Shown: piece after piece, positions 1 to 16,427 of the stretch | How the letters are laid out: every line of letters begins with the position of its first letter | Numbering within the stretch: position 1 is the stretch's first letter | Source: a virus | DNA: 20,960 nt | Strand: one strand, 5' to 3' | IMG/VR virus record: IMGVR_UViG_3300009165_000049 | Span: 1-20,960 of that record | Made by a program: the position numbers and the translations under genes | The notes under the pieces: generated by a model | Seen by the model: the letters and a program-made list of their open reading frames with translations, nothing else | The model's database searches: none | What the model was told of the DNA's origin: nothing

Positions 1-141
1 AGACAGGTGAACAAGGGTGTAGGCCTCGGAATCCAGCGCAGACTCCTGCAATTCAAACGCAAGCGTCTTTGCCTCTTCAAAAGTCTTGGCGGTTGTCTGT
101 CGCCAAATTCCACGGCTGCGGTGTGTCGTTACGGTGTACAT
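1..141 (-). CDS. Hypothetical leftward protein, 5' part only (runs off the left edge)
   Basis: Read leftward from ATG at 141, 47 codons stay open to the window edge, so the C-terminus is missing. The visible protein begins MYTVTTHRSRGIWRQTTAKT and continues with an acidic, helix-prone stretch (FEEAKTLAFELQESALDSEA). The start was chosen because a Shine-Dalgarno-like GAGAGGAC lies just upstream, in an 11-base block (GAGAGGACTGA) identical to the one before the other leftward gene. I do not recognise the family. The pattern of a short strand, a basic patch and a helix is seen in many small phage early proteins, but no function should be assigned. It is probably co-transcribed with the leftward gene to its right, 88 bases upstream. 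Confidence 0.6.
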   Translation of the reverse strand, partial: MYTVTTHRSRGIWRQTTAKTFEEAKTLAFELQESALDSEAYTLVHLS

Positions 142-143
142 GG

Positions 144-154
144 TCAGTCCTCTC
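144..154 (-). promoter_or_regulatory. Ribosome binding site block shared by the two leftward genes (copy 2)
   Basis: On the minus strand this reads GAGAGGACTGA, two bases before the ATG at 141. An identical 11-mer is at 639-649, four bases before the ATG at 634. The AGAGGA core is the likely ribosome binding site and decides both starts. Confidence 0.5.
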
Positions 155-195
155 GTACTAGGTGCGTTGCGTCGGTATCGGCCGTCGCATCCCGC

Positions 196-211
196 CCACC
201 CCGAAGGGTGG
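196..211 (-). promoter_or_regulatory. UUCG-capped hairpin between the two leftward genes
   Basis: CCACCC (196-201) pairs perfectly with GGGTGG (206-211). On the minus-strand transcript the loop is TTCG closed by C-G, the very stable cUUCGg tetraloop. It sits 18 bases past the stop of the leftward gene 230-634 and before the next leftward start at 141. No T-run follows, so it is better read as an mRNA processing or stability element, or a weak terminator, than a classical terminator. Confidence 0.35.
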
Positions 212-229
212 ACAGGTGCGCGGTCGAAG

Positions 230-634
230 TCAGACGGCACGTTTGGCGGCAAGGAGAGATTCCCGCTTCTCAGCAGCTTCGGCGGCGCGACGATTCTTGC
301 GCGTGCGGCAGTCATCGGCGGCGGTGCGAACGTCATGGTGCATTTCTTTCCACTCATTGAAATCAATCACGCCAAGTTCATCCAGCACGTTGATTAGCAA
401 GGCCGCTTGGTTTTGCGCGTTCCGAATCGTTTCCAAAGGCGGCTGAGTCGTTGACCATTCTCCGGTATAGCCACGGTTCATGTCAGTAACCAGTCGATTG
501 ATTGTGGCTACCGTTCGTTCAGCAAACGCGGCAACCTTTGCGGAGTCAGCGGTGGCTAGGCGCGGCATGGTGATGACGGGCGGGTTGATAGCAAATTGGT
601 TGGCGGTGATGGCGGTGTAAATGGTGTCGGTCAT
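230..634 (-). CDS. Hypothetical leftward early protein, 134 aa
   Basis: The protein starts MTDTIYTAITANQFAINPPV and ends in a lysine/arginine/alanine-rich helix (RKNRRAAEAAEKRESLLAAK). The frame stays open upstream to about 760, but the start at 634 is preferred because GAGAGGAC lies at the correct distance and the longer version has no ribosome binding site. The middle is mostly helical (residues 28-75), and the basic C-terminal helix could bind nucleic acid or be a coiled coil; that is inference. The family is not recognised. It is transcribed away from the replication and packaging genes, so it likely belongs to a separate leftward early operon with the partial gene at the left edge. Confidence 0.65.
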   Translation of the reverse strand: MTDTIYTAITANQFAINPPVITMPRLATADSAKVAAFAERTVATINRLVTDMNRGYTGEWSTTQPPLETIRNAQNQAALLINVLDELGVIDFNEWKEMHHDVRTAADDCRTRKNRRAAEAAEKRESLLAAKRAV

Positions 635-638
635 GGCT

Positions 639-649
639 TCAGTCCTCTC
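639..649 (-). promoter_or_regulatory. Ribosome binding site block shared by the two leftward genes (copy 1)
   Basis: The minus strand reads GAGAGGACTGA, four bases before ATG 634. It is the same 11-mer as at 144-154, and AGT occurs a few bases further upstream in both copies. It fixes the start of the 134-aa gene. Confidence 0.5.
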
Positions 650-692
650 AAACTGGGTGTGTTTGTCAGCGGCACGCGCCTCTGACATCGGA

Positions 693-721
693 AAGATACT
701 GACAGGTACATCGGCACGCAA
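693..721 (-). promoter_or_regulatory. Candidate sigma70-type promoter for the leftward genes
   Basis: On the minus strand TTGCGT (716-721) is followed after 17 bases by TATCTT (693-698). This would start RNA about 50 bases before the ATG at 634. Only 4 of 6 consensus bases match in each box, so this is a weak call supported mainly by the position. Confidence 0.3.
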
Positions 722-831
722 GGGGTCAATCCGTAAGTTTGTTGACGGATTTCCACACAATCGCAGATTCCTAGCATCAAACCCGCATCAAATAAATTGA
801 CACCCAGCCCGATTATGATGCCGCTCGGTGT

Positions 832-966
832 GCCAGCCGCGCTGGTGGTCGGCTGGCGCGGTTGGTACGCCAAAAACAAACGCGGCGCGGATCTTTCGAT
901 CAACACGCCGCGCTTCCGGGGGTGAGGTAAGGAGCGGTCAAGACCGCCCCGCCACATGGTGGCGGG
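832..966. promoter_or_regulatory. Cluster of four inverted repeats in the divergent control region
   Basis: Between the leftward and rightward units (635-1103, no convincing gene) there are four dyads: GCCAGCCG/CGGCTGGC (832-839 with 850-857); CGCGGCG/CGCCGCG (881-887 with 906-912); GCGGTC-AA-GACCGC (934-947); and directly abutting it CCCGCCAC-ATG-GTGGCGGG (948-966). The last ends five bases before the extended -10 at 971-979, so it covers the -35 position. Operators for a repressor are one reading; back-to-back hairpin terminators are another, but T-runs are absent. Confidence 0.45.
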
Positions 967-970
967 TTTA

Positions 971-979
971 TGGTATCAT
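971..979 (+). promoter_or_regulatory. Candidate extended -10 promoter for the rightward early genes
   Basis: TGGTATCAT fits the extended -10 pattern TGN-TATNAT. No good -35 box is present; the expected place is occupied by the palindrome at 948-966. RNA would start near 986, giving a leader of about 118 bases before the ATG at 1104. Confidence 0.35.
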
Positions 980-1010
980 GTTTTCAGCGACTCCCAACGT
1001 GGGGATAGCC

Positions 1011-1074
1011 GAGCGGCTGCAACTGCTCAAATTCTCGACAACTGTAGGTGGGGCGGGTCAGCCCGCAGCCGCTC
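1011..1074 (+). promoter_or_regulatory. Long dyad in the 5' leader of the initiator-like gene
   Basis: GAGCGGCTGC (1011-1020) pairs perfectly over 10 bases with GCAGCCGCTC (1065-1074). Inside the loop GCGGG and CCCGC flank TCAG, a second short stem. It lies between the candidate promoter and the ATG at 1104, so it would be part of the leader RNA. Control of initiator translation or a small structured RNA are possible; the fold is seen, the role is not. Confidence 0.35.
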
Positions 1075-1103
1075 CCCGCCCTACCTGCGGCCTTGGTAAA
1101 GAC

Positions 1104-1505
1104 ATGGCACGACTACGACCATCCGACATCTGGGCAACCGTCCAAGACTTGAGCGCCGGGGAGCTTCTGGTCATCCTCGCCCTCGCCGACTACGGCGAAG
1201 TGGCGTACCCCAGCCAGAAGAAACTGGCGGCGAAATGTCGCATGGCGCGGACGATCGTAAACACCATAATCAGCAACCTCCGCAATCGCGGAATCTTGAC
1301 CACCAAAGGTACGGGGAAGTCTCTTACCTACACCATTCACCTGTCCGAAATCCGGACACCTACCTGTCCGAAATCCGGACATCAGATGTCTGAAATCCGG
1401 ACAGGAGATGTCCGGAATCCGGACAGGGATCCTAACTCGTCCATTCAACTAACAAAACGAACTCGGAATTCGGCGGCGGAAAAACCACAACTAGCACCCT
1501 TTTGA
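1104..1505 (+). CDS. Winged-helix replication-initiator-like protein (lambda O-like arrangement)
   Basis: A 133-aa protein. Residues 17-80 match the pattern of phage winged-helix domains (HTH_36 type): helix SAGELLVILALADY, then YPSQKKLAAKCRMARTIVNT as the helix-turn-helix, then SNLRNRGILTTKG leading to the wing. Such domains occur in phage replication initiators and some regulators. The C-terminal third (81-110) is written by four 17-bp DNA repeats read in all three frames, so this part of the protein is dictated by DNA-level sites. ATG 1104 was chosen because the HTH domain follows at normal distance; the frame is open back to 828, but that part overlaps hairpins and reads as low-complexity non-protein. 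The ribosome site is weak (GGTAAAG). The next gene follows with essentially no gap. It is shorter than lambda O, so a pure regulator binding its own gene remains an alternative. Confidence 0.7.
   Translation: MARLRPSDIWATVQDLSAGELLVILALADYGEVAYPSQKKLAAKCRMARTIVNTIISNLRNRGILTTKGTGKSLTYTIHLSEIRTPTCPKSGHQMSEIRTGDVRNPDRDPNSSIQLTKRTRNSAAEKPQLAPF
1342..1425 (+). repeat. Four 17-bp dyad iterons inside the initiator-like gene
   Basis: Copies: 1342-1358 and 1365-1381 are identical, TGTCCGAAATCCGGACA; 1387-1403 has one change (C to T at its fifth base); 1409-1425 has one change (A to G at its seventh base). Each is a hyphenated dyad, TGTCCG-N5-CGGACA. Start-to-start spacing is 23, 22 and 22 bp, about two helical turns, so bound proteins would line up on one face. 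The repeats fall in three different reading frames of the host gene, showing selection on DNA rather than protein. Confidence 0.85.
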
Positions 1506-1530
1506 GCGAGCGAATTTTCAATATGCAACA
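1342..1530 (+). other. Candidate replication origin (iterons plus A-rich flank)
   Basis: The iteron array is followed at once by a locally A-rich stretch (about 1437-1475, roughly 59% A+T by hand count, and again around 1508-1560), in a genome that is otherwise GC-rich. Iterons inside the initiator gene followed by an unwinding region is the known layout of lambda ori within gene O. This is inferred from layout only. Confidence 0.5.
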
Positions 1531-1999
1531 GACAACATCAACAACGTGGATCGACAACAAAATCTACCTCTGCAAACTGTGGCCAAAATACAAGCCCACC
1601 CCGGAAGAAGGCAACCTCCTGAACGAACGCTGGGGATCGCTGAAGCAGGACATCCTGCGCGAGTGCATTAAGCAACACCGCTTCGAGCGCGATAGTCGCC
1701 CCGACCTGTCCGCCATTCACAAGGCGTACTGCAAGATCACCGCCACCGCGCACACCGCCGGGGTAGCGAGTACGGAAATCGAGGACACCCGCGCACAGGT
1801 CTGCGTCCCTCCAAGCGCGAGCGAGCTCGCAGATTGGGACACATGGGCAGCAAAGATCCTCGAAACCGTCACGGACGAGGAGATCGAAGCCGTGCGCGAA
1901 ACCATGACCTATGTCCCCACGACCAGCCGAGTGCTAGCCGTGGCGGTCGAACACGTTCGCTTGCAGGGCGGCAGGATTGCCCGTAGGGGCGCTCGGTAA
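1523..1999 (+). CDS. Hypothetical protein, possible helicase-loader-like replication partner
   Basis: A 158-aa protein directly after the initiator-like gene. Residues 10-72 read as helices ending in RPDLSAIHKAYCKI, resembling the pattern (Y-P..F...W...L......A...H.....FPPSIADI) of phage helicase loaders/inhibitors such as the G39P type; this is a pattern-level resemblance, not a firm family match. In lambda-like and SPP1-like phages the loader follows the initiator, so the location agrees. The C-terminal half is acidic then helical (DTWAAKILETVTDEEIEAV) and ends RIARRGAR. A TTG at 1502 overlaps the previous stop (TTGA) and would add 7 residues; ATG 1523 is preferred as the better codon, though neither has a strong ribosome site. 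Confidence 0.6.
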   Translation: MQQTTSTTWIDNKIYLCKLWPKYKPTPEEGNLLNERWGSLKQDILRECIKQHRFERDSRPDLSAIHKAYCKITATAHTAGVASTEIEDTRAQVCVPPSASELADWDTWAAKILETVTDEEIEAVRETMTYVPTTSRVLAVAVEHVRLQGGRIARRGAR

Positions 2000-2026
2000 T
2001 GATTTTGGCATCTCTGCCCGTCCAAG

Positions 2027-2064
2027 CCCAAGGGACGCGGCAGGGAGCATTCTAGAGCCTTGGG
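2027..2064 (+). promoter_or_regulatory. Small hairpin in the gap after the loader-like gene
   Basis: CCCAAGG (2027-2033) pairs with CCTTGGG (2058-2064) across a 24-base loop. It occupies the 91-base gap 2000-2090. A+T-rich DNA (GATAAATC) follows, but there is no clear T-run, so terminator activity is doubtful. Confidence 0.25.
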
Positions 2065-2090
2065 ATAAATCAGGATAATTGAGGATAAAT
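2061..2090 (+). repeat. Three tandem 10-bp repeats ending in a ribosome binding site
   Basis: Successive decamers TGGGATAAAT, CAGGATAATT and GAGGATAAAT share the core GGATAAWT. The last supplies the Shine-Dalgarno GAGGAT just before the ATG at 2091. Tandem binding sites or simple slippage expansion are both possible. Confidence 0.55.
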
Positions 2091-2429
2091 ATGAACTACG
2101 CCAGTAAACCAATGAAGAAGAAACTCGACCAACTCGCTCTCTACCTCGCGCACGAGGGTTTTACGGTCGGACGAACCGCGACCGGGATGGTCGCCGTCGA
2201 TGACGATGGGATCGTCATTCAGGTCAGCCCCTTCCGCACCAGCGCACAAGTCCGACACACCATCCACGGCCGCTTCCGCGAGGAGTACGTCAAAAAACTC
2301 CCTACCACCGACTGGTTCACTACCCGCATTCCCGTCCTGATGAAGTGGGCGAAAGACCCCTTCAGCAAGGAAATGCCTCGCTTTGTCTCCGTCTCGCGCC
2401 GACCTGTTCCCTCGCAGGTCAAGCCATGA
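2091..2429 (+). CDS. Hypothetical early protein, 112 aa
   Basis: Begins MNYASKPMKKKLDQLALYLA. A short helix is followed by strand-like segments (FTVGRTATGMVAVDDDGIVIQVSP) and a helix with HTIHGRFREEYVKKL, an alpha/beta small-domain pattern. The ATG at 2091 is set by GAGGAT five bases upstream. The stop overlaps the ATG of the next gene (ATGA at 2426-2429), so the two are likely translated together. I do not recognise the family. It lies between replication-like genes and terminase, where phages often carry small regulatory or recombination proteins. Confidence 0.7.
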   Translation: MNYASKPMKKKLDQLALYLAHEGFTVGRTATGMVAVDDDGIVIQVSPFRTSAQVRHTIHGRFREEYVKKLPTTDWFTTRIPVLMKWAKDPFSKEMPRFVSVSRRPVPSQVKP

Positions 2430-2692
2430 ATGCTATACTCGACCGTATGAACGACTACGATGACTTTAAGTCTGCCATCCGTACCGCGCTGGAGGCGCGA
2501 GGAAGTACGCGAGGGGAACTTGCCCTGCGCATGGAAGCCGATGGCATCCTCCGCGCCCATACCGTCCGCTGCCTCCTTGGGACACCGGGGACACGCAACG
2601 GGCGCAGGAAGCCTGCGTTCGACTCCGCTCTAGCAATCGCGCACGCTGCCGGATTTGAGTTGATTCTGAGGAAACGGAAGGTACGATCATGA
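2426..2692 (+). CDS. Small putative DNA-binding (HTH-like) protein, 88 aa
   Basis: Starts at ATG 2426 overlapping the previous stop, with AGG at 2416-2418 as ribosome site; an in-frame ATG at 2447 (MNDYDDFKSAIRTALEARGS) is an alternative start. The sequence STRGELALRMEADGILRAHTVRCLLG followed by SALAIAHAAGFELIL resembles small Cro/XRE-like phage regulators, in which the ELA..M segment and the HTVRCLLG segment would be the two HTH helices. The final AIAHAAGFELILRKRK is typical of short HTH regulators and antitoxin-like proteins. The resemblance is moderate. Its stop overlaps the next start (ATGA at 2689-2692). It could regulate the packaging operon that follows, by inference from position. Confidence 0.6.
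   Translation: MNAILDRMNDYDDFKSAIRTALEARGSTRGELALRMEADGILRAHTVRCLLGTPGTRNGRRKPAFDSALAIAHAAGFELILRKRKVRS
2431..2439 (+). promoter_or_regulatory. Extended -10 element positioned for a leaderless transcript
   Basis: TGCTATACT matches the extended -10 pattern and ends 7 bases before the in-frame ATG at 2447, the spacing expected if RNA starts at the A of that ATG. The -35 region is poor. It would give the small HTH-like gene a second, shorter, leaderless product. Confidence 0.3.
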
Positions 2693-3111
2693 CAGAAGAC
2701 GCGCCCCTCGATAGGGGGAAGGGGGATGTCCGCGACCTCGTCACGCGCCGCGACAAGACCCTGCACCTCTCTTGCCTTGAGCGAGCCGTCTACGGCGGTT
2801 GGGACATTCCAGCCGAGGCCGCTAAGTCTGCGCCCGCCTTCCTACAGGACGTGATGAACGATCCGAACATGGATACCCGCACCCGCGTGCGAGCCGTGGA
2901 AGTCCTTGCGTCCCTGTCCCGTGATCGCGTAGACGCGACCGTGCAGCTCGACCGCATCTTGCGCCTTGACGCTGGTACGGCAACCGACCGCGTGGAAGTG
3001 ATCCACGACCTTGGAGATCAAGCCCTTGATGCCGTCGCTCAAAGCCTCAACCAGATCCAGCCCCCCAAGTGCCTTCCAAAGCCAAAGCGAAAACCAAAGC
3101 GCAAAGCCTGA
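2689..3111 (+). CDS. Putative terminase small subunit
   Basis: A 140-aa protein immediately before the large terminase and overlapping it by 43 bases. Residues 29-80 (LERAVYGGWDIPAEAAKSAP, then a D-M-x-T-R-x-R-V-R-A-V-E-V-L helix ending SLSRDRVD) follow a pattern I associate with small conserved proteins preceding terL: a W-x-I-P helix, a short linker with a nearby tandem-helix repeat, and a helical middle (97-121). The C-terminus is strongly basic (PKPKRKPKRKA), suited to DNA contact. TerS recognises phage DNA and loads TerL. No canonical N-terminal HTH is evident, so the call rests mainly on size, basic tail and position. ATG 2689 overlaps the previous stop by 4 bases (ATGA). Confidence 0.55.
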   Translation: MTEDAPLDRGKGDVRDLVTRRDKTLHLSCLERAVYGGWDIPAEAAKSAPAFLQDVMNDPNMDTRTRVRAVEVLASLSRDRVDATVQLDRILRLDAGTATDRVEVIHDLGDQALDAVAQSLNQIQPPKCLPKPKRKPKRKA

Positions 3112-4535
3112 CCCCGGAGCAGGCGGTCGCCGCAGCGCGGGAGAACCCGGCGGCGTTTCTTGCCTTGTGCCTCGGAAAGCCCGTCTCCGACCTGCAACGC
3201 AGTCTGCTCGCGCACGGGTTGAAGCACCATAGTTGGTACGCGGAACTACCCCGAGGACACGCCAAGACCTCGACCCTCACCTACCTTGCCGCATGGTGGC
3301 TCGGTCGTCGCCCAGCAACGCGCTTTAAGCTCATCGGGCAGAACGACGAAGCCGCGTCGGCAACCTCTCGATTCCTGCGCGACATCATCCGCAGCCCCAT
3401 CTACCGCGCCACCTTCCCCCACGTTGAACTCAAGCCCGGGGAAGATACGGTCATGGCGTGGTCGATCACCGCGCCCGGGGTAGGGGCAAGGCGTGACCCG
3501 TCCGTCCAAGCCTCCGGCATCTTCGGGCGCACGGGCGGACGCGCCGACGTTCTTTGGCCGGATGACATTTGCGACCTACGCAACGCCGTCCTCCAACCGA
3601 CCCTCCGCGCACAGGTCAAGGAGGCGATGAACAACATCTGGCTCCCCATGCTTGACCCGTCCGCCAAGCACCCCGCCCGCATTTGGCGCACGGCGACCCC
3701 CTTCCATACGGACGACATTACCGCCGACTGGCGCAGGGAATGCGAACGCGCTGGCACGCTCCTACGCGAGCCTTGCCGGGGACTGATTAGCCCGTGGGCA
3801 AGCGTGTTCACGCCTGAGATCCTCGACCAGAAGCGCCGCGAGATGGGGCCGATGGCATACGCCCGCGCCTATGAACTCGTACCGCTGTCCTCCGACCTCC
3901 TGATCTTCCGACCGGAGTGGACGCGTTACTACCGCTCCGGCACGGTTCCCCTTGGTACGCGCACAGTTGCCGCTATCGACTGGGGCTACGGAAAGAAGCG
4001 CCAAGAGCGCGACGACCCCGACTACTCGGTCTGCATCGTGGGCGAGGTCGATCAAGCCCGCAACCTGTACCTCACCGACATCCTTCGCGTCCGCGAGTCG
4101 TTCCCCGACTTCGCCCGCATGGCGAAAGACCTCGTGGAGCGCCGAGGCGTGGGCATGGTTCTAGCCGAGGCGAACGGGCCGCAGAAGGGCGTGTTCGACC
4201 AATTCCGCCAAGACTGCCACCAGCCCGTCATTGCCGTCACCCGCACCGCCGACAAGCATTTACGAGCCGCCGCCGCCCAGCCGTTCGTTGAGCAGGGCAA
4301 GCTCCTGTTCCCGCAGAACCATGACGGGCAAGTTCACGCCGATTTCCGTTCCACCCTTGACGAAATGCTTGCCTTCCCCGCTGGCAGTCACGACGATACG
4401 GTGGACTGCATCGTTGACCTCTGCACCGCAGCGTCGAGCGGGACGGTAGTGACATCAGGCGGCGCGGTCACCGTGGCGACCGACACGAGCAGGATGTTTG
4501 ATTCTCGCGCAGTCAAGCGCAGAATGTTCGGTTGA
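3069..4535 (+). CDS. terL: Terminase large subunit (ATPase and nuclease)
   Basis: A 488-aa packaging motor. The N-terminal ATPase shows a Walker A-like loop PRGHAKTS (61-68), Walker B VLWPDDI (161-167; Asp165/166), and a coupling motif RTATPF (207-212). The C-terminal RNase H-like nuclease shows the acidic residues of AIDWGYG (Asp304), LAEANG (Glu367) and GSHDDTVD (Asp442/443). Length is normal for the family. The protein drives DNA into the prohead through the portal and cuts the concatemer. The start is a GTG at 3069, with poor ribosome site, overlapping the TerS-like gene by 43 bases; translation coupling is likely, and no ATG offers a better fit upstream of the ATPase core. The C-terminal segment (456-488) is a loose Ser/Thr/Gly tail with a basic end. 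Confidence 0.95.
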   Translation: MPSKAKAKTKAQSLTPEQAVAAARENPAAFLALCLGKPVSDLQRSLLAHGLKHHSWYAELPRGHAKTSTLTYLAAWWLGRRPATRFKLIGQNDEAASATSRFLRDIIRSPIYRATFPHVELKPGEDTVMAWSITAPGVGARRDPSVQASGIFGRTGGRADVLWPDDICDLRNAVLQPTLRAQVKEAMNNIWLPMLDPSAKHPARIWRTATPFHTDDITADWRRECERAGTLLREPCRGLISPWASVFTPEILDQKRREMGPMAYARAYELVPLSSDLLIFRPEWTRYYRSGTVPLGTRTVAAIDWGYGKKRQERDDPDYSVCIVGEVDQARNLYLTDILRVRESFPDFARMAKDLVERRGVGMVLAEANGPQKGVFDQFRQDCHQPVIAVTRTADKHLRAAAAQPFVEQGKLLFPQNHDGQVHADFRSTLDEMLAFPAGSHDDTVDCIVDLCTAASSGTVVTSGGAVTVATDTSRMFDSRAVKRRMFG

Positions 4536-4575
4536 ATCGGTACGATGCTTGCGGACTACTCAACAAAGGAACCAC

Positions 4576-6312
4576 ATGAGCAAGCAAGACATAGAGAAGC
4601 GTTTGGGATTCGCGGCGCAAGGCGTGAAATCCGAGTTTGGTTCTAACGATCCGTATATGCAAGAGCGCACGGTCAAAACCCGCAAGGGCAAGACTACTGA
4701 CCTCGTTGCGGAAATTGGGCAAAACGGTGGCGGTGGCGACTATATCGCTACTTTGATGCTTGTGCATTCAAACGGAGAACCACAGGTTTTGCAATCAAAG
4801 TACGGTTACAAAACTCCTGAAAGCGCAACGCGTGCGGCAATCCGTTTGTTTGATGCTCATGTTTCTCGCGGTGGCTACGCTCGCTCTGGCTCGAAAGCAA
4901 AGATGGCCGCCCCAAAAAAGAACGTAGGTTACCTAGCCGTTACTAATTCCGAATACGCCGCCTTGGCGGCTAGTGACGCAGCAGGCAAAAGGATTTCAAG
5001 TAACTCGCAGTATCAAATTACCAGCGAAGACCGCGCAATTATGGCAGCAGGTAAAGCAGCCGCGAAGTCCGCGCTGGCACGACACGACGCATGGGACAAG
5101 GCTTGGCGCAATGCGCCAAACGATGCCGCTCGCGCAAAGGTTGAAGCTGAAGCGGAAAAAGCCGAATCCGGAATGAAGAAATATCCAGTCACAAGACTTC
5201 ATTTTGCCCGCACCAGCGCGAAGGCGAAGTTTGCAAAGCCTCAGTTCCGCACGAAAAAACTGCACAACGGATATATAGCCGTAGAGGTAAATCAAGGGAA
5301 CGGCTGGGAGAGGTACGACACTACGCACGAAGAATCTTGGAACGGAATTGAAGAGTACGAACGCGGATACCAAAAGGCGTATGACCGAGGACTTCGATAC
5401 AGCGGAGGCTCATGGCGTATTCCTAGCACCAACGCCGCCCGCCCCGGCGTGAAAGCGAATATGGGGCTAGAAATGAATATGCTGGATTTTCGGCATAAGT
5501 TTTTCACCGCATTTGGCACGGCTATTCGGGATGCAAAGAGCAATCCCAACACGGCGGAAGCGCAGTCAGACGAAACCGTGCTTCGTGAGTCATGGGCTTC
5601 CATGTTCGCGCAGGGATACTCCGACGCAATCAGCGATCTGAACGGTTTATCGGCGACAATGAAGTCCAAGACTTCGGTTGGTCAGATGCGTAAGGCTGCT
5701 TCAGACGCGATGGAAGCTTACCGTCAGGCAAAGGCCGCCGTCCGCTCCTCCCGCCCCGGCGTGAAGGCTACGTTTGGTCTTCGGGTTCCTGAATTAGAAA
5801 CCCTGTATTCGTCGCTGGGCGCAAGTGGGCAAGCCATTACAGACAAGCCATCCGCAAGGAAAGACCGCGCCTTGTTGCTTAAATTGGATGCTGAGTATTC
5901 GCAACCAACCGACACGGTGATGGTGGCATTGAATGCCGCAAAACTTTACCGTCAACTTTCCGCAGGTTCAAAAGCAACCCCGCAGGGTCAAAAGTTTCAG
6001 CAAAGGCTAGAGATTGCAGGGGGTCATAGATTTGCCCGCCCCGGCGCGAAGGCGAAGATGGCGGCGGAAATCGCATCCGATCCAAGAGACAAAGACTTTG
6101 AGAAACTCAAGACCTTGAAGGGCGTGGTACATCAGGGCAAAGGGTTTTACATCATTCCCAATAAGCTGATGACCCCCGAACGCCGAACCAAGGTGAAGCG
6201 GTCAACACAACGCTACGAACTGTCCAACATGGGCGACCTTGTCGGCTGGGGAACCAATCACCCAAACGTAAACGACTACCGCTTGAAAGACTGGGCAGAG
6301 GCTTTCGCGTGA
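4576..6312 (+). CDS. Modular repeat protein with recurring RPG-KA linkers (unknown function)
   Basis: A 578-aa protein between terminase and portal. It begins MSKQDIEKRLGFAAQGVKSEF. The tag-like GFAAQGVKSEFG (11-22) recurs as a linker: YARSGSKAKMAA (101-112), FARTSAKAKFAK (210-221), AARPGVKANMGL (287-298), SSRPGVKATFGL (391-402), FARPGAKAKMAA (486-497). The linkers separate about six dissimilar modules of 65-100 residues: some beta-like (VAEIGQNGGGGDYIATLMLV; KLHNGYIAVEVNQGNGWERYDT), some helical (369-388). Start ATG 4576 has AAAGGA eight bases upstream; earlier in-frame starts lack one. The gene looks lower in GC than terL and portal. I do not recognise modules or linker. A packaged internal protein, polyprotein or virion decoration is possible; see findings. 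Its stop overlaps the next start (GTGA). Confidence 0.85.
   Translation: MSKQDIEKRLGFAAQGVKSEFGSNDPYMQERTVKTRKGKTTDLVAEIGQNGGGGDYIATLMLVHSNGEPQVLQSKYGYKTPESATRAAIRLFDAHVSRGGYARSGSKAKMAAPKKNVGYLAVTNSEYAALAASDAAGKRISSNSQYQITSEDRAIMAAGKAAAKSALARHDAWDKAWRNAPNDAARAKVEAEAEKAESGMKKYPVTRLHFARTSAKAKFAKPQFRTKKLHNGYIAVEVNQGNGWERYDTTHEESWNGIEEYERGYQKAYDRGLRYSGGSWRIPSTNAARPGVKANMGLEMNMLDFRHKFFTAFGTAIRDAKSNPNTAEAQSDETVLRESWASMFAQGYSDAISDLNGLSATMKSKTSVGQMRKAASDAMEAYRQAKAAVRSSRPGVKATFGLRVPELETLYSSLGASGQAITDKPSARKDRALLLKLDAEYSQPTDTVMVALNAAKLYRQLSAGSKATPQGQKFQQRLEIAGGHRFARPGAKAKMAAEIASDPRDKDFEKLKTLKGVVHQGKGFYIIPNKLMTPERRTKVKRSTQRYELSNMGDLVGWGTNHPNVNDYRLKDWAEAFA
5440..6046 (+). repeat. GC-rich DNA blocks encoding the RPG linkers (first locus)
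   Basis: The block CGCCCCGGCG occurs at 5440-5449, 5752-5761 and 6037-6046, each continuing with a closely similar YGAARGC segment and coding for R-P-G-[AV]-K-A. DNA between the blocks is unrelated and more AT-rich. Earlier linkers in the same gene have diverged at DNA level. Confidence 0.75.
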
Positions 6313-7121
6313 GCCAACGCAAGGACATCATGCGCCGACTAGGCATCTTCGCCCTGCCGACAAGCAAGCGCAAGCTGACCATCGACCAAGCCGAAGCGGC
6401 GCTCAAGCGCCTTGGGTATACGCTTGACTTCCGCAGCGGGCAGACCAACCCGCCAACGTGGCAAACCTCCTACGAGGTGAAGCAGCCGAACGGCGTTGTC
6501 AAGCGCATGACGGTAGACCAGATTAAAGCCCTGATGCAGCGGTCGAGGTTCGATAGCAACTGCGGCATTGGTAAGGGCGGGTTCAAACCCGGCAACACCT
6601 GCGGCGCTGAAAGCGGCGGCGGCGGTTCGTCATCGAAGCCAAGCGACACCGTGCGCGGCATTGAAGACCGCGCCAAGGCGGCTGGGAAGTCGTTCACGGA
6701 GCAATGGCTATCGGAAACGCGCTCGGACATTACCCGCCAGTACGACCAACGCGATGCGCGGGAGGCAAAGAAGGCGGCGGACACCATTCGCAAGAAGGAA
6801 GCCGAACTCGCTGAAGTGAAGCGACAAGGCCCACAGGCACGCGCTGGCGGGTTGCCTGAAAAGGCAAAGACCATCCGCGCCCTTGAAGGTCAACTCGACA
6901 AGGCAAAGCAGGACGTGGAAACCCTACGCAAGCAGCATGAAGCCGCTGCCAAGGCAAGCGAAGCCGCAATGCGTACTATGCGCGAGAAGCGTGCAGCGCA
7001 GAACACCCCAGAGGCTAAACGCGCTGCCGACATTGCACGCTCCAACAAACAAGCCCTCAGCATGGTGAATCGAGAGCGCAAGCAGCGCGGGCTTCCACCA
7101 CTCAACAAACTCCCGGACTAA
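6309..7121 (+). CDS. Tagged coiled-coil protein with a Cys-flanked GGFKPGNT motif
   Basis: A 270-aa protein starting at GTG 6309, overlapping the previous stop (GTGA). The N-terminus MSQRKDIMRRLGIFA resembles those of the two modular repeat proteins. Residues 22-78 form a small alpha/beta domain (TIDQAEAALKRLGYTLDF... YEVKQPNGVVKRMTVDQIKALM). Then NCGIGKGGFKPGNTCG (84-99), a motif with two cysteines I have the impression of seeing in other phage head-module proteins, and a Gly/Ser linker. Residues 145-260 are a long charged coiled coil rich in Ala, Lys, Arg, Glu. It may be a structural or DNA-associated head protein; function is not assignable. Directly upstream of the portal with a 6-base gap. 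Codon choice is closer to the core genes than that of its modular neighbour. Confidence 0.8.
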   Translation: MSQRKDIMRRLGIFALPTSKRKLTIDQAEAALKRLGYTLDFRSGQTNPPTWQTSYEVKQPNGVVKRMTVDQIKALMQRSRFDSNCGIGKGGFKPGNTCGAESGGGGSSSKPSDTVRGIEDRAKAAGKSFTEQWLSETRSDITRQYDQRDAREAKKAADTIRKKEAELAEVKRQGPQARAGGLPEKAKTIRALEGQLDKAKQDVETLRKQHEAAAKASEAAMRTMREKRAAQNTPEAKRAADIARSNKQALSMVNRERKQRGLPPLNKLPD

Positions 7122-7127
7122 GCCAAG

Positions 7128-8621
7128 ATGCCCGACCCGATCAACAACCCGCTCTCGCAACGTCAGTCGATCCCCGGCGCAGGATTGCCACCAACCAAGC
7201 GACCGCGCAAGCCGCTGCCGCCTCCGATTGATCGTGGACTGACCGGGCCGCTCGCCATGCCCGTGGAAGTGCAGCGGACGTTCTTCCGTACCGCCAGCCT
7301 GATGCTGCGGAACTCCAGCCTCGCGTACCGCCTTGACCCGAACTATCAAGCGATGATGCGGGCAGATGCGGACATCGAGGGCGTGCTGCGCTCTTTGCTT
7401 GTGACCCTTGCCGGGTTGGAGTGGAACGTCCTTTCCGACGACGAATCAGATCCGCGCCTCGTCAAGCTCGCCGAGCGCATTGCTGAGATCATCAGCGCAG
7501 CCCCGCGCCGTAGCGATATGTTCCGCTCCCTGCACGAAGCCGTTTGGTATGGGTGCAGCGCCGTGAACGTGGTTTACGACCGCGACCCGCGCCTTGGGGT
7601 ACGCATCCGCGAATGGCTTCCGCTCGCCTCCGATACCCTCGCCTTTGACCAGACCGGGAACGTGGCGATGCGCGTTGGTAGCGCCTACATCAACGAGGCA
7701 TCCGTCACCGACCTCGGCTTTGACTCGCTCGTCCACCTGTTTGACGACAACGAACGCCGCGCCATCGTCTTGCACCGCGTCTTTACCACCGCGCCAAACT
7801 TCATCGACCCGAACAGTGCCGAGACGGTTTACCGTGGCGTAGGTGCGCGAGATGTCTGCTGGTACATCTGGCTCTTGAAGCAGGAAGTCCTACAGAACGC
7901 CGCCGCCTATGTGGAGCGGTACGCGCTCGGCATCCGCGTTGGGTACTACCCAGCAGGGAACGATGCCGCCAAGAGCGAGATGATGACCATCTTGCAGAAC
8001 TTGGTCAATGACAACTCGGTCGTTCTGCCCCGTATTTCGCCGACCGAGTCCATGTACGACATCGACATCAAGGACGCGAACGGTGGCCGCGCCCAGATCT
8101 TCATGGAGTTGGTCAACTGGCTCTCGGGCAAACTCAAGGAAGCAATCCTCGGTCAGTCGCTCTCTAGCGAGGCTGGCGGGACGGGTATGGGGTCAGGCGT
8201 TGCCGACCTCCACGCCGATACCCTTTCCCGCGTTATCCGCTATCACGCGGATTGCCTCGCGGAGAGCCTGACCACCGACCTCGTCCGCATCATTGCCGGG
8301 ATGCTCGGAGCCTCCGAAGAGGATGCCCGCCGTATTCGGTTCGTCTTTGCCCCGGAGCGCCCGAACCCGAAGGAGCGGCTCGAAGCAATTCAGACGTTCA
8401 TCCAAATGGGTGGCCGCGTCAGCGAGCGCGAAGTCCGCGACCTCCTCGGTCTGTCCGACCCGGAAGACGGAGAATCCGTCCTCGGCGGTCAAGCCGCAGG
8501 CAGCGCGGGCGCATCGTCAAACCCGCTCTCCGCCATGCTCGGGCAGGGCAACGAGAGCGAGGGCGACGAGCCAGCCCCTGAAGCGCCGAAGGTAGCCGCC
8601 GTCCGTAAGCGCAAGCGATGA
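7128..8621 (+). CDS. Portal protein (Mu gp29-like, DUF935 family)
   Basis: A 497-aa protein forming the DNA entry ring at the head vertex. The order fits DUF935/Mu gp29 portals: a proline-rich N-terminus (18-35), DADIEGVLRSLLVTLAGLEW (80-99), a central region with WYGCSAVNVVYD (140-151) and EWLPL, then the family block GQSLSSEAGGTGMGSG (342-357) followed by VADLHADTLSRVIRYHADCL. The C-terminal tail (465-497) is Gly/Ser/acidic then basic (VRKRKR) and likely disordered. It is located after terminase and just before MuF, and overlaps that gene by ATGA (8618-8621). The start ATG 7128 has a poor ribosome site (AAGCCAAG). Confidence 0.9.
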   Translation: MPDPINNPLSQRQSIPGAGLPPTKRPRKPLPPPIDRGLTGPLAMPVEVQRTFFRTASLMLRNSSLAYRLDPNYQAMMRADADIEGVLRSLLVTLAGLEWNVLSDDESDPRLVKLAERIAEIISAAPRRSDMFRSLHEAVWYGCSAVNVVYDRDPRLGVRIREWLPLASDTLAFDQTGNVAMRVGSAYINEASVTDLGFDSLVHLFDDNERRAIVLHRVFTTAPNFIDPNSAETVYRGVGARDVCWYIWLLKQEVLQNAAAYVERYALGIRVGYYPAGNDAAKSEMMTILQNLVNDNSVVLPRISPTESMYDIDIKDANGGRAQIFMELVNWLSGKLKEAILGQSLSSEAGGTGMGSGVADLHADTLSRVIRYHADCLAESLTTDLVRIIAGMLGASEEDARRIRFVFAPERPNPKERLEAIQTFIQMGGRVSEREVRDLLGLSDPEDGESVLGGQAAGSAGASSNPLSAMLGQGNESEGDEPAPEAPKVAAVRKRKR

Positions 8622-9700
8622 CAAAAGCCGACCTCGACAAGCACCTCCGCAAAGTCCTGCGCCAGTCGCAGCAGGCGTACCGTAGGGCGGTCGCGGCTCA
8701 GGTTAGGGGCGAAGATGCCCTTGCCGCGTGGGCGGAGTTCCACGAGGCAACGGCGGCGCTCCTGATGGCATCGTGGCTCTTTGGGGCGCGTGACACCGTG
8801 GACACCGCCAAGATCCCAGACGGGGCTATCGAGGGAATGCTGGACGATGGGGACGCGGTCAAGTTCGACCGAGACGTACCGATCTCTCTTGAGGGCTTCG
8901 GGACGAAGTGGATGGCTCCAATCACGGGCTGGTTCCGTAAGCGCGTCCCGATTACCCGCGCCGACTGGGATTTACTCATCAAGGCAGCAGCCGCTAGCGC
9001 TGGGGACGTGACCGATCACGAGCGCGAAAACGCCCTTCCTGACCTCCGCAAGCAGTCCCCGATCCTCGACTCGTTGTTACGTGGTGTTACACGAGGGCCG
9101 CAAGGGGCTATCTCCCGGGTCAAGCGGATCGTTGATACCACCTTCTTTGTGACCGCCATGCCTGTCGCACAGGCGCGGATGGTGCAGGAACTGATCGCGC
9201 AGGTCATCGAGGAGCGCCCCACCAAGAGCGTGGTCGGCAAGCTCATCAAGACCATGAACCTCGGCGACTTCGTGACCACCGCCCAACTGATGACCGGGAC
9301 AGGGCTAACGTCCTCCCGCCTTGAAACCGTCCTGCGGACGAACACCAACCGCGCCATGACCGAGGGCAGCGCCGAAGTCCTACGCGACGAGCGGGTGCAG
9401 GCTTTCGTCCCGCTAGTGCAATTCAGCGCCACCAAAGACCCGCGCACGCGGGACACGCACCGAGCCTTTGACGGCTACGTCGGGACGATGGCAGACTTCG
9501 ACCGCCTTGGAATTTCACCCCCATTGGGCTTCAACTGCCGCTGCGCCATCATTCCCGTCCCTGCCGCCGAGGCTATGCGCGAGCGATGGACGCGCCCGAA
9601 CGGGACGATAGACCCAGCCGCTATTGCCAAGCACAACGGAGCGCGTCAGCGCCTAGTGGACACGCGCCAAGTTCCTGACCCCGGTTTCGTAAACGCATAA
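8618..9700 (+). CDS. MuF-like head morphogenesis protein
   Basis: A 360-aa protein. The C-terminal half carries the phage Mu F domain (about 205-315): LETVLRTNTNRAM (235-247), then F-S-A-T-K-D-P-R-T-R-D-T-H (269-281), FDRLGISPPLGFNCRCAI (294-311) with the paired Cys307/Cys309 that close these domains. MuF proteins attach to the portal and act in head assembly, sometimes being ejected with DNA. The N-terminal half is helical, with WLFGARDTVDTAKIPD (53-68). No toxin or enzyme extension is fused downstream. ATGA overlap with the portal gene (8618-8621) indicates coupled translation. Confidence 0.9.
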   Translation: MTKADLDKHLRKVLRQSQQAYRRAVAAQVRGEDALAAWAEFHEATAALLMASWLFGARDTVDTAKIPDGAIEGMLDDGDAVKFDRDVPISLEGFGTKWMAPITGWFRKRVPITRADWDLLIKAAAASAGDVTDHERENALPDLRKQSPILDSLLRGVTRGPQGAISRVKRIVDTTFFVTAMPVAQARMVQELIAQVIEERPTKSVVGKLIKTMNLGDFVTTAQLMTGTGLTSSRLETVLRTNTNRAMTEGSAEVLRDERVQAFVPLVQFSATKDPRTRDTHRAFDGYVGTMADFDRLGISPPLGFNCRCAIIPVPAAEAMRERWTRPNGTIDPAAIAKHNGARQRLVDTRQVPDPGFVNA

Positions 9701-9725
9701 ATAAATCGCAATGGAGATCGCTACG

Positions 9726-10724
9726 ATGCACGACATGAGCAAGGAGACATTTCTTCGGCCGGATCAACTGAAGCGCGGAGTCGAGATTGAGCTGACGCAG
9801 CGCCCAGAATGGGGAACGGCATTCATCCGTGGCCGGGTTCAAGGAAAACCCCAATTATGGGATGTCTCAAAGAGCATGGACAAGCGCGGCAGATTCATTG
9901 ACGAGGATGAGCTTCTACAACATTGGAGAACACCGAATATGAGCAACACACGCAAGGAAATTGCCGCCCGTCTTGGATTTGCTGCTGGCAACGGCGCGAA
10001 GATGGCGTTTGCCCCTCAAATTGACGAAGCTGAGCAAGAATTAAAGGCTTGGACAAAGAAGCTCGGGTATTACCCTGATATGGCAAAGGTCAATATCAGA
10101 CCTAATACCGTAATGCTTTGGTTTTACGACCAAAAAGGCAAGGCAACGCAATTAGCATCAAAGCTTCGCAGCGTTGCGGCAAGCATGAATCTTTCGCCAT
10201 CCGCAATTACTTCAGAAGAAGGACGACACCCAGCGTATGACGGCGGGGCTGCTCGGGATGTTGGACAGGTGACGGTTGATTACAACCGTAGTACGAAATC
10301 CTCCCGCCCCGGCGCGAAGGCAAAATTTGAAATTTCTTCATATGAGCAAGCGGAATATCAAATTGCATTAAGTGAAGAACGCATTGCGTCTTATCGCAAG
10401 GCACTTGCAAACACCGAAGCAATGATTAGAAACGCTAACAGTTTGATGCGTACCGCTGATTCAGGTGACAAGAAAGCAATGAAAGAAGTCATTGGCATTG
10501 CGCGAATGTTGGAATCAACAATGAAATCTCGCGGTTTCTCGCGCCCCGGCACAAAGACCAGCATGACCCGCGAGCAGACCGAGGAGCAGAAGGCAGGGCT
10601 GAAGATCATGTCCGCCGCTGACCCAGCCGTCGGCGAAAAAATAGCCACCCTCATCAAAGAAGGCAAGCCACAAGACCAAGCGGTCGCAATCGCGCTCGAC
10701 ATGAAGCGCAGAGGAGAGATCTGA
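9726..10724 (+). CDS. Second modular repeat protein with RPG linkers
   Basis: A 332-aa protein. Start ATG 9726 has GGAG (9713-9716) at good distance; ATG 9711 has none. Residues 1-71 are a small domain (LKRGVEIELTQRPEWGTAFI...). Residues 72-95 (MSNTRKEIAARLGFAAGNGA and on to KMAF) match the N-terminal tag of the gene at 4576. Linkers SSRPGAKAKF (192-201) and FSRPGTKTSM (271-280) separate further modules: a charged helical module (202-270) and a C-terminal one ending VGEKIATLIKEGKPQDQAVA with IALDMKRRGEI, a short phage motif (K.GKP..QAVAIAL, similar to the end of DUF6496-type proteins). Unknown function; same family logic as the 578-aa protein 4 kb upstream. It looks lower in GC than the core head genes. 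It ends one base into the next ATG (TGATG). Confidence 0.85.
   Translation: MHDMSKETFLRPDQLKRGVEIELTQRPEWGTAFIRGRVQGKPQLWDVSKSMDKRGRFIDEDELLQHWRTPNMSNTRKEIAARLGFAAGNGAKMAFAPQIDEAEQELKAWTKKLGYYPDMAKVNIRPNTVMLWFYDQKGKATQLASKLRSVAASMNLSPSAITSEEGRHPAYDGGAARDVGQVTVDYNRSTKSSRPGAKAKFEISSYEQAEYQIALSEERIASYRKALANTEAMIRNANSLMRTADSGDKKAMKEVIGIARMLESTMKSRGFSRPGTKTSMTREQTEEQKAGLKIMSAADPAVGEKIATLIKEGKPQDQAVAIALDMKRRGEI
9925..9941 (+). promoter_or_regulatory. Internal ribosome binding site and start within the modular gene
   Basis: GGAGAA (9925-9930) lies 8 bases before an in-frame ATG at 9939, which begins exactly at the tag MSNTRKEIAARLGFA. In the two other tagged genes this tag is the true N-terminus. 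A 261-aa product from here is plausible beside the 332-aa one. Confidence 0.5.
10305..10551 (+). repeat. GC-rich DNA blocks encoding the RPG linkers (second locus)
   Basis: CGCCCCGGCG at 10305-10314 and CGCCCCGGCA at 10542-10551 code for R-P-G linkers and match the blocks at 5440, 5752 and 6037. The first is followed by CGAAGGC, as at 6037. Confidence 0.7.
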
Positions 10725-11875
10725 TGCCACAAGCATTTCTATCAACTAGTGTCCCCGCCTATTCGCTGCTTGACTACTCAGCAGCAAGTGCGTCCTACGC
10801 ATCAGTCGCTCCAACGGCGACCAAGCCCACCACAGGAGTGATCTACGATTCTCCGAGCAGCTTGCCAAGCTTGCTTCGTGTCCTCCCTTTCAGCAGCGTA
10901 AACAACGCTACTACGGTTGGTCTTCGTGTTGTTGGCTGGACGCAAGGGTCAATTCCAAGGCGGTATAGCAATCGTGTGCCATACTCGCAGCAGTTTGACA
11001 ATGCAACGTGGACAAAATCCGCCGTCACCGTATCTGCAAATACTGAAACAGCACCAAACAGTACGACTACGGCAGACGTGTTGCTTGAAACTACTGCAAA
11101 TTCAGGTCACAACACATATTGGAATACTTCTGATAGCGGATGGGCAACCGGAACCTATGCGTTTTCGGTACATCTTAAAGCCGGAAAGGGGCGCGATTTT
11201 GCCACCGTCACTCTTGGAAATAGCCCTTCCACTCAATACTACCGAGTTTGCTTCAATCTTTTGACTGGCGAGGTTACGCAAACAGACACTCAAACAGGTG
11301 GCGGAAGTGTCGGCTCGGTTGGTTACGCGGTAACCAATGCAGGAAATGGATGGTGGAGAGTTACCATCTATGGCAATGCCATGCAGTTCTATTTGATTGC
11401 CCCGAGCCGCACAGGCACACCGCCAACGGCTGGAGGTTGGGGCCAAGATAGTTATGCCGGGGACATCACAAAGGGTATCGTAGTATGGGGCGCACAAGCC
11501 GAATTCGGAACTACAGCGTCTCCTTATGTGGAAACGACTGCTCCTGCATCTGGCAACATTGCAAATGTGACGGCAATTGATTCGACCGTAGCGGCAACTC
11601 CGGTTTGGTTCTCAACGATCTTGGGCGATTTCACGCTGACGTATACGTCTGGAACCGTCCCTAGCATTGTCGTCAACAACAACTCAACCTACATCTTCAG
11701 CACGTTGACACAAATAGCAATTAGCCCAGACGCAAGTCTGTATCAACCCGCCAAGGTGACCGCATCGGACTTGGGGACAACATCGGTTCTCATTGACCCT
11801 ATTGGGAACCAGCTTGTGCAATTGCAGTTCAAGGCAAATAGTGGAAACATGGGCGCGTTTTGGTGTTCGATCTAA
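10724..11875 (+). CDS. Carbohydrate-binding-module-like adhesin or head fibre
   Basis: A 383-aa secreted-type virion protein without a signal peptide. Residues 84-272 follow the pattern of a common phage beta-sandwich binding domain: NRVPYSQQFDNATWTKSAVT, later YAFSVHLKAGKGR, FNLLTGEVTQ, GNGWWRVTIYG and the closing IVVWGAQAEFGTTASPYVET. The domain is inserted between an N-terminal beta region with VGLRVVGWTQGS (65-76) and a C-terminal Ser/Thr/Asn-rich beta region, so it looks like a graft in a host protein. Rich in Thr, Ser, Asn, low in charge, as in fibres. GAGGAGAG gives a strong ribosome site before ATG 10724. The next gene (an esterase) starts inside its stop (TAATG), suggesting the two act together on a surface glycan. 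It lies in the head module, so a head fibre is as likely as a tail one. Confidence 0.7.
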   Translation: MPQAFLSTSVPAYSLLDYSAASASYASVAPTATKPTTGVIYDSPSSLPSLLRVLPFSSVNNATTVGLRVVGWTQGSIPRRYSNRVPYSQQFDNATWTKSAVTVSANTETAPNSTTTADVLLETTANSGHNTYWNTSDSGWATGTYAFSVHLKAGKGRDFATVTLGNSPSTQYYRVCFNLLTGEVTQTDTQTGGGSVGSVGYAVTNAGNGWWRVTIYGNAMQFYLIAPSRTGTPPTAGGWGQDSYAGDITKGIVVWGAQAEFGTTASPYVETTAPASGNIANVTAIDSTVAATPVWFSTILGDFTLTYTSGTVPSIVVNNNSTYIFSTLTQIAISPDASLYQPAKVTASDLGTTSVLIDPIGNQLVQLQFKANSGNMGAFWCSI

Positions 11876-12906
11876 TGAGGAATCGGCTTTCAAATGTCAT
11901 TCGGAGATTCCGTAGACCCGGATTAACGGGTGGAGGATATTTCTATGACTTATACGCGCCTAACACGGCTGCTTTGACGGTTTCGGACTATCAAGCAATT
12001 CAGCAACGCACCGCGCAAACGCTTGAATTCCGACGCACCATTGTCGAAAACAACCGGATGCAATACGCGTCGCCGGGATCTCGTGTTTCGTTCCAGACGA
12101 ACGCCGAAAGGCTACGGCTGAATCTGTACTGGAACGCTGAGGTTTACAACGTCATCAGCGGAAACGCCACATTTAATGGGGTGGGATCGGTTCTATCCAA
12201 TGGAACCGAGATCGGTACATTTGATTGGTCGCAGCCCCTTGTGAAGGGATATTCAACTCCGACCTATCCTCTTGCAACGGGAACCAAGACGGTCACGATT
12301 GTTTGGCCGTACAGCGCGGGACTTCAATTGCAATCGGTAGATTTGCAGCGCGGCGCAAGCCTAGTAGCAGCAACACGGCCAGCGAACAAGATTGGCATCT
12401 GTGGAGACAGCATTTCCCAAGGCTTTGAATCTAGCAAAATCACTACGACATGGGCTTATCTTCTCGGCAACACGCAGAGCAGACAGGTCATCAACTTGGC
12501 GAATGCGGGAGTGCCAGCAGACGCAAGCCATGCGACTGCGCTTACAGGAACAGGCTGCGACCGCGTGACCTATATGATCGGGTACAACGACTTTGCATCT
12601 CAAACGGCGCTAGTGACATTTCAGAACGCCGTTCAGGGCTGGATTACCAATGCGCGAGCGGCTTTGCCTTCTGCGCGGATATATGTGATCTCGACCATCT
12701 ACTCGCCAAACACAAATACAATCACGCTAGCGCAGTATCGAAGCGCGGTGCAAGCGGCTGAACTGGCGGCTGGTGACGCAAATACGTTCTACATTGATGG
12801 TTTGTCGATTATGACAAACAACACCAATCGACTAAGCGGAACGATTCATCCAAATGACCTTGGCGCGTCCGAAATTGCTACAAACTTGCAGCCATTAATT
12901 ACATGA
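11875..12906 (+). CDS. SGNH/GDSL-family esterase of the virion
   Basis: A 343-aa protein. The C-terminal domain (about 168-343) has SGNH blocks: ICGDSISQGFES with catalytic Ser179 (block I), a glycine in NLANAGVPAD (Gly212; block II), YMIGYNDF with Asn238 (block III), and GTIHPNDLG with His325 (block V). The usual Asp three residues before the His is Gly322 here, so the triad may be a Ser-His dyad or use another acid. Residues 40-165 form a beta-sandwich that probably binds substrate. SGNH enzymes on phages deacetylate or cleave ester bonds in host surface polysaccharide. ATG 11875 lies in the preceding stop (TAATG); no ribosome site is visible, so reinitiation is likely. GTG/TTG codons at 11863/11860 are alternatives. 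It ends with ATGA overlap to the protease gene. Confidence 0.8.
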   Translation: MRNRLSNVIRRFRRPGLTGGGYFYDLYAPNTAALTVSDYQAIQQRTAQTLEFRRTIVENNRMQYASPGSRVSFQTNAERLRLNLYWNAEVYNVISGNATFNGVGSVLSNGTEIGTFDWSQPLVKGYSTPTYPLATGTKTVTIVWPYSAGLQLQSVDLQRGASLVAATRPANKIGICGDSISQGFESSKITTTWAYLLGNTQSRQVINLANAGVPADASHATALTGTGCDRVTYMIGYNDFASQTALVTFQNAVQGWITNARAALPSARIYVISTIYSPNTNTITLAQYRSAVQAAELAAGDANTFYIDGLSIMTNNTNRLSGTIHPNDLGASEIATNLQPLIT

Positions 12907-14399: not shown

Positions 14400-14411
14400 A
14401 AGGAAACAACA

Positions 14412-14801
14412 ATGCTTCAATTCTCTCCAAATCTCATTGCTACCGCTGACATCAACCCCTATGCCATCGTCAAGATGTCAACGACCGCGTTCTCAGGTTC
14501 TGCCTCCACGGCAGCGGCTGACTACGTTGTCGGCGTTGCTGACGGCTCAACAAGCCGATTCAATACCACCGTTCACGCAGCAGCAGGCGACCCAATCAGT
14601 CTCCAGCCGTCTAACTGCGTCCAATTGAAGTGCGGCGCATCGGTCGCTATTACTGCGGGTCTTGGCTTGATCGCCGGGACTGCGGGCGTAGCGATTACTG
14701 CGGCTGGTAGCGGCAATGTTCCGCTGTTCGTGGCTCTTGAGCCAGCAGCGGTTGATTCCATCTTCTGGGCATACCGCCTGCCCTCCGTCAAGGCTCTGTA
14801 A
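14412..14801 (+). CDS. Head decoration/stabilisation-like protein
   Basis: A 129-aa protein just before the capsid gene. It has the light, Ala/Gly/Val-rich beta pattern of capsid decoration proteins of DUF2190 type: ADINPYAIVKM, AADYVVGVADGSTS, AAGDPISLQPSNCVQLKCGA and GNVPLFVALEPAA. In these the order is V-G-V-A...A-A-G-D...G...A-L-E. They bind the capsid outside at local symmetry axes. No tail or enzyme features are present. AAAGGAAA gives a good ribosome site before ATG 14412. A 25-base gap with AT-rich TAATTAATTAT separates it from the capsid gene. Confidence 0.65.
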   Translation: MLQFSPNLIATADINPYAIVKMSTTAFSGSASTAAADYVVGVADGSTSRFNTTVHAAAGDPISLQPSNCVQLKCGASVAITAGLGLIAGTAGVAITAAGSGNVPLFVALEPAAVDSIFWAYRLPSVKAL

Positions 14802-14811
14802 TTAATTATCG

Positions 14812-14820
14812 AAAGGAGGT
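14812..14820 (+). promoter_or_regulatory. Consensus ribosome binding site of the capsid gene
   Basis: AAAGGAGGT, fully complementary to the bacterial 16S 3' end, six bases before ATG 14827. It is among the strongest sites in the window, as expected for the most abundant virion protein. Confidence 0.9.
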
Positions 14821-14826
14821 CATCAA

Positions 14827-15864: not shown

Positions 15865-15883
15865 TTCTTCAGCCTCTCAGGAT

Positions 15884-15917
15884 GAGGGTGGTGGGGACTT
15901 CGGTTCCCACCACCCTC
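15884..15917 (+). terminator. UUCG-capped 15-bp hairpin after the capsid gene
   Basis: GAGGGTGGTGGG (15884-15895) pairs with CCCACCACCCTC (15906-15917); three further pairs (one G-U) close a TTCG loop at 15899-15902 with C-G. It starts 19 bases after the capsid stop. After it comes TCTAGG, not a T-run, so it may be a partial terminator or a 3' stabiliser giving extra capsid mRNA relative to tail genes. Confidence 0.65.
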
Positions 15918-15931
15918 TCTAGGCGGAACCT

Positions 15932-16426: not shown

Positions 16427-16427
16427 C

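Follow-up and report, generated by a model that had tools for sequence, protein, structure and literature searches.

The window, by which we mean the whole stretch of DNA analyzed here, consists of the 20,960 bases of virus record IMGVR_UViG_3300009165_000049. Near its start, a short initiator-like gene containing four regularly spaced palindromes is located between a conserved leader and a second gene that is retained among the relatives. The coordinates of these features are collected in the table.

Features of the locus, in window coordinates unless a contig is named
Feature	Position	Strand	Remarks
Conserved leader, covarying H-type pseudoknot	1011–1090	+	Kept with both initiator types
Exchangeable cassette	1092–1531		Replaced in eight relatives, homology on either side
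Initiator-like gene, 133 codons + stop	1104–1505	+	Winged helix at residues 6–78, disordered tail at 84–133
Putative iteron 1	1342–1358		TGTCCGAAATCCGGACA
Putative iteron 2	1365–1381		Same sequence as iteron 1
Putative iteron 3	1387–1403		Single change, TGTCTG
Putative iteron 4	1409–1425		Perfect odd palindrome TGTCCGGAATCCGGACA = TGTCCGGA-A-TCCGGACA
Candidate unwinding element	1480–1580		Least stable in this part of the window; putative function
Constant downstream gene, 158–165 aa	1502–1999	+	Candidate partner or helicase loader
-PF C-termini	Window 1497–1502; L100 2450–2977; L142 14965–15795	L142: minus	Two initiator types and ERF

A sequence-only reading of the window had described four 17-bp palindromes at periods of 22 to 23 bp, two of them identical. 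We confirmed the arrangement, with start-to-start distances of 23, 22, and 22 bp, and found the identity of copies 1 and 2 to extend over 20 nt. With at most one mismatch allowed, the window contains four matches; among 100 dinucleotide-preserving shuffles, the mean was 0.12 and the maximum two, and none reached four. With up to three mismatches, the signal is drowned by chance matches (12 found, 11.8 expected). Counting palindromes of any sequence was uninformative for the window because copies 1 to 3 are imperfect (19 of 200 shuffles reached the window), and a count of palindromes with the same arms was of no use either (627 of 1,000). Measured from the ATG at 1104, the copies begin at offsets 238, 261, 283, and 305 and thus fall in frames 1, 0, 1, and 2. 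The repeats do therefore occupy all three reading frames of the gene, as had been claimed, and the conserved thing is the DNA and not the protein.

The 133-aa protein matched the Pfam family HTH_36 (PF13730) over residues 15–65 (28.3 bits, cut-off 25), and its AlphaFold2 model had a pLDDT of 76–92 over residues 11–80 and below 50 from residue 84; the winged helix that had been read from the sequence is supported by both. In PHROGs, a database without curated cut-offs, the protein matched the replication initiation family phrog_270 (2.4e-9) and the O-like family phrog_345 (2.1e-7). A fold search with the model gave mostly MarR/ArsR-type regulators, and a search of the Protein Data Bank (PDB) with the profile and the model returned general winged-helix proteins only, mostly regulators; a sequence search with lambda O found no match there. 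The first repeat begins at residue 79, directly behind the predicted winged helix, and the repeats therefore encode a linker-like disordered tail. Only 26 residues follow the repeats before the gene ends, the phrog_270 match is restricted to positions 35–162 of 383, and the C-terminal part contacting the helicase loader is absent from the protein. As the length of 133 aa and this short tail are shared by ten contigs, the suggestion of a minimal version of a lambda-O-type initiator holds.

To compare the locus with known origins, we used a repeat detector based on 11-mers with two mismatches and a spacing of 15–50. In lambda O, it recovered the four annotated iterons, spaced by 20, 24, and 23 with the first at residue 116, and in the window gene, the four repeats from residue 79 with the distances given above. 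Lambda O thus resembles the window gene in having four palindromic iterons, 20–24 bp apart, behind an N-terminal DNA-binding domain. The two differ in iteron sequence and in size (133 aa versus 299 aa), and the window initiator lacks the C-terminal half with which lambda O contacts P, there being no recognizable P either. According to PMC4488673, the lambda origin comprises four 19-bp repeats inside O, to which the N-terminal half of the protein binds, and a strand-asymmetric A-T rich part beside them. PMC7466680 reports in-gene iterons for the Stx phages P27 and 933W, with an A-T rich tract midway through O, and describes their O proteins as dimers; these close kin of lambda differ from the window in having six iterons. 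For repL/oriL of phage P1, an origin inside the initiator's own gene has been postulated, with an A/T-rich region needed (PMC9948254); the initiator is of a different family, and the text of that paper does not contain the word "iterons".

We then selected 16 phage initiators by protein similarity to the winged helix of this family, with the repeats not looked at; these represent about one per genus or group and were hand-picked among 60 listed of 84 matching records. Behind the winged helix, at least three in-gene repeats were present in 14 of the 16 and at least four in 9, while among 68 neighboring genes the corresponding numbers were 7 and 0 (Fisher's exact test, 4e-9 and 3e-8, P values that overstate independence because there are related phages among the 16). 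Three repeats were lacking only in the Salmonella phage SI8 gene and in the gene for a protein of 87 aa. Such HTH_36 or PHROGs O-like initiators (RcBaka, Labrenzia V1, PPF1, RothD, ZF40, mEp460, and others) share the winged helix and the in-gene repeats, which are located at residues 82–145 and mostly 20–25 bp or about double that distance apart; their iteron sequences vary from one phage to the next and are unlike those of the window, and the sampled proteins are 210–446 aa long, except for the 87-aa protein without repeats. Among four further genes reached from the window protein, three repeats were found in LASTA, Pavtok, and a Piscirickettsia plasmid, and not in an Azospirillum plasmid. 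In-gene iterons are thus usual in this initiator family, to which the window adds a further case.

The A-rich stretch that had been read behind the repeats is not pronounced. The segment 1437–1500 is moderately A-rich (23 A in 64 positions, 52% A+T; 4.6% of the 64-mers of the window have as many A), and an A+T-rich segment immediately next to the repeats is not borne out. The minimum of nearest-neighbor stability is instead at 1512–1571, a stretch of 60 bp 87 bp off the last iteron, and just 0.4% of the window is less stable; the 60-bp segments starting at 1480–1520 are 60% A+T, corresponding to the 98.5th percentile. In this the locus differs from lambda, in which the low-stability segment adjoins the iterons. 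A cumulative GC-skew minimum near 1400, also predicted, was absent in the window and in a relative of 33.7 kb.

The same gene was found in nine viral contigs with 95–99% identity, all of which keep four copies at unchanged spacing, one of them (L013) with an extra change in copy 2. Across the ten contigs, 2 of the 68 repeat positions vary and 27 of 327 elsewhere in 1111–1505 (P = 0.09), in the expected direction but no more than a trend toward better-conserved repeats. A wider viral search and a second alignment gave no further initiator lineage of use.

A search with the downstream gene returned 17 contigs, consisting of the nine relatives with the HTH-type gene and eight more (L100, L101, and L109–L114). 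In the eight, blastn homology to the window breaks at 1091 (1075 in L109) and restarts at 1532–1540; the initiator gene is the sole gene exchanged, and the flanks are kept in all of them. The replacement, in the same position between the leader and the downstream gene, is an unrelated gene of 175–186 aa. The three replacement genes scanned gave matches to DUF1376 and to "primosomal protein" PHROGs, the Pfam scores of two being slightly below the cut-off, and no homology was detected between the DUF1376-type and the HTH_36 proteins. The palindrome of the window was absent from the three DUF1376-type contigs searched whole. In its place, seven of the eight DUF1376-type genes contain another palindrome, TGGCTNAGCCA (GGCT-N-AGCC), four to five times, a number reached by none of 1,000 codon shuffles; the eighth, of L109, has one long palindrome and imperfect repeats, not clearly above chance (29 of 1,000 shuffles). 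The copies of TGGCTNAGCCA are mostly 12 bp apart, and as this period is in frame, protein repetition remains a possibility in those genes. The phrog_9327 match of the DUF1376 proteins covers about the first 124–139 of 276 positions, and given the similarly partial phrog_270 match, both types of initiator resemble amino-terminal halves. The initiator and its repeats thus move together as a single cassette. Such a joint swap is a prediction of an initiator–origin pair, and the classical lambda/phi80/82 O hybrids are a parallel to it. In one contig (L011), an HNH endonuclease gene at 146–742 separates the leader from the start of the initiator, at the cassette junction, and might be a driver of the exchange.

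Scanning genomes and viruses for the palindrome, we examined 80 loci. Outside the clade of the window, the host protein was scanned at nine loci and had an initiator-type or HTH_36 match in eight (L016, L028, L031, L043, L057, L069, L082, and L085); that of L081 had neither. The scans also picked up unrelated features, including repeats in Corynebacterium, clusters located between genes, and a par-like site. In L017 and L024, TGTCCGGTTTCCGGACA occurs in triple clusters that are intergenic or at gene starts, with a further single copy about 3 kb off, all in apparent structural-gene regions, resembling dispersed operator-like sites. Pairs of TGTCCGC..GCGGACA, 43–45 bp apart and several per genome, were seen mostly in Clostridia bins (L025, L026, L032, L039, L042, L044, L047, L051, L072, L074, and L080) and look like a family of dispersed repeat elements.

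The arrangement in L017 and L024, together with the regulators dominating the fold search, speaks for the repeats being operators, through which the winged-helix protein would act as a transcription factor and control the early operon from inside its own gene. We nevertheless consider this unlikely. The sequence-only reading had proposed a search for the same repeat in related phages, and in all five HTH-type contigs examined (22–36 kb), the copies were found inside the initiator gene and none elsewhere. Moreover, the best family matches of the protein are replication initiation proteins, and phage O-like genes as a rule carry repeats at this position.

The repeats could also work at the RNA level, folding into four successive hairpins of the initiator mRNA that control its translation or stability. 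Each copy can form a stem-loop with a stem of 6 bp (only 5 bp in copy 3) and a loop of 5 nt, and just upstream lies a covarying RNA leader. The leader is predicted to consist of two helices of 10–11 and 16 bp, A pairing 1011–1020 with 1065–1074 and B pairing 1042–1057 with 1075–1090. In eight distinct leader sequences, 209 of 209 cells were paired and seven pairs showed double changes, the structure having been drawn by eye from the window and L100, which biases this count in its favor. In L109, one more base is inserted in each strand of one of the helices, and shifting the partner by one to three columns reduced the pairing to 41–55%. No Rfam family matched the leader at gathering score; microRNA and sRNA models hit both the repeats and the leader, but always below their gathering scores, and these hits were dismissed. 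The leader may control the expression of the replication operon. For the repeats themselves, we regard a role in RNA as very unlikely: palindromes of this kind are the usual form of protein-binding DNA sites, their regular spacing of 22–23 bp is a property of the DNA helix, and the Rfam matches to the inverted repeats were of microRNA type and subthreshold only.

A centromere or partition site is extremely improbable. A similar triple palindrome, TGTCCGGACTCCGGACA, does lie in L038 (7317–7423) between a parA-like gene and the next gene, which by eye looks like parB, and may possibly be a plasmid partition site, but no ParA- or ParB-like neighbors were seen in the window or among the genes scanned in the relative of 33.7 kb, and the gene containing the repeats is an initiator. 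Mere repetition at the protein level or a functionless recent tandem duplication, as the 20-nt match of copies 1 and 2 might suggest, is hardly credible, given that the three frames yield differing peptides and that all ten contigs retain the copies, most of the changes falling outside the 17-bp units.

The constant downstream gene, kept at 83–99% with both initiator types, is perhaps the natural candidate for the helicase-recruiting role. Its product had no Pfam match over the cut-off (only SnoaL_2 below it, E = 0.02), no PHROGs match, and no PDB profile match; the AlphaFold2 model had a pLDDT of 48, and hhalign comparisons with lambda P and with 14 other downstream genes gave a best probability of 0.9%. 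The L005 record (G001, 33,686 bases) is circularly permuted relative to the window: window positions 1–13796 and 13629–20960 map to its two parts. As the two overlap by 168 bp, the genome is about 33.5 kb long, of which about 21 kb are contained in the window. L005 contains ERF, Gp157, RusA, and Dam, and the window a Mu-type portal and head gene and a terminase. No DnaB match was found in any of eight related contigs and no integrase in eight; the search for a Mu transposase in eight contigs was likewise empty, which proves nothing because the control also gave nothing in 14 genomes. ARAGORN found no tRNA. The gene set fits a phage that supplies an origin-binding protein itself and relies on the helicase of its host. 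In the structural region, we noticed by eye repeated "RPG.KA" motifs (such as ARPGVKA, SRPGVKA, and SRPGAKA) in the genes at 4498–6312 and 9711–10724, possibly repeated processing or linker motifs.

The two unrelated initiator types share one further feature. Their C-termini, LAPF, LVPF, WVPF, and WTPF, all end in -PF, as does the ERF protein (EVPF), a similarity noticed after the fact; among 38 phage proteins checked, the ending was found in the initiator and ERF only, and in none of 24 other initiators. The -PF end resembles the C-terminal tip of bacterial SSB. We make no claim of a common ancestry for these tails, as the alignment of the last 30 residues of the initiators is not significant beyond PF (with 5,000 shuffles, 357 for L007 versus L100, 823 for the window versus L100, and 1,648 for L007 versus L112). 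The shared tail points to a common docking partner, as a lead and not a result.

Taken together, the four palindromes are very probably the start site of replication of this phage, as predicted from the sequences. Because the palindrome sequence is used elsewhere and alone proves nothing, this verdict rests on its place, its gene, and their joint exchange. The proposal of a lambda-O-style origin is supported by the initiator family, by the lambda-like layout, and by the repeats being confined to the gene and exchanged with it, and we consider it highly likely that the repeats are iterons of a lambda-O-type origin inside the gene of their own initiator, acting as follows. Dimers of the 133-aa winged-helix protein would bind the four palindromes, which, being about two helical turns apart, share one face of the DNA. 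The resulting complex of initiator and iterons would distort the helix and open the unstable stretch at about 1480–1580, and a partner, perhaps the product of the constant downstream gene, would bring in the replicative helicase of the host; the origin would thus fire from the repeats.

A more far-reaching model, which we offer tentatively and hold to be rather doubtful, is that of a split, plug-in initiator. An exchangeable DNA-binding half would carry its origin within its gene, as HTH_36 with TGTCCGRAATCCGGACA or as DUF1376 with TGGCTNAGCCA, and the constant downstream gene would be the helicase-recruiting half; the unrelated initiators would dock through an SSB-like "-[VAT]PF" tail to the product of that gene or to a host replication protein that binds SSB, and one pseudoknot leader would serve them all.

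An in-gene origin is ordinary in kind, and the interesting part is the minimal form and the natural swap. New here are the very short initiator without the lambda-P-binding half, the exchange with DUF1376 genes, the shared -PF end, and the pseudoknot leader. Searching for regular palindromes just behind a winged helix offers an easy method of origin calling in uncultured phages. The locus suggests that a winged helix of 133 aa can suffice as a complete origin-binding initiator, with a very small origin inside its gene, and, with unrelated initiators and unrelated repeat sets at one locus whose flanks are kept, it provides a natural test of the pairing of origin and initiator.
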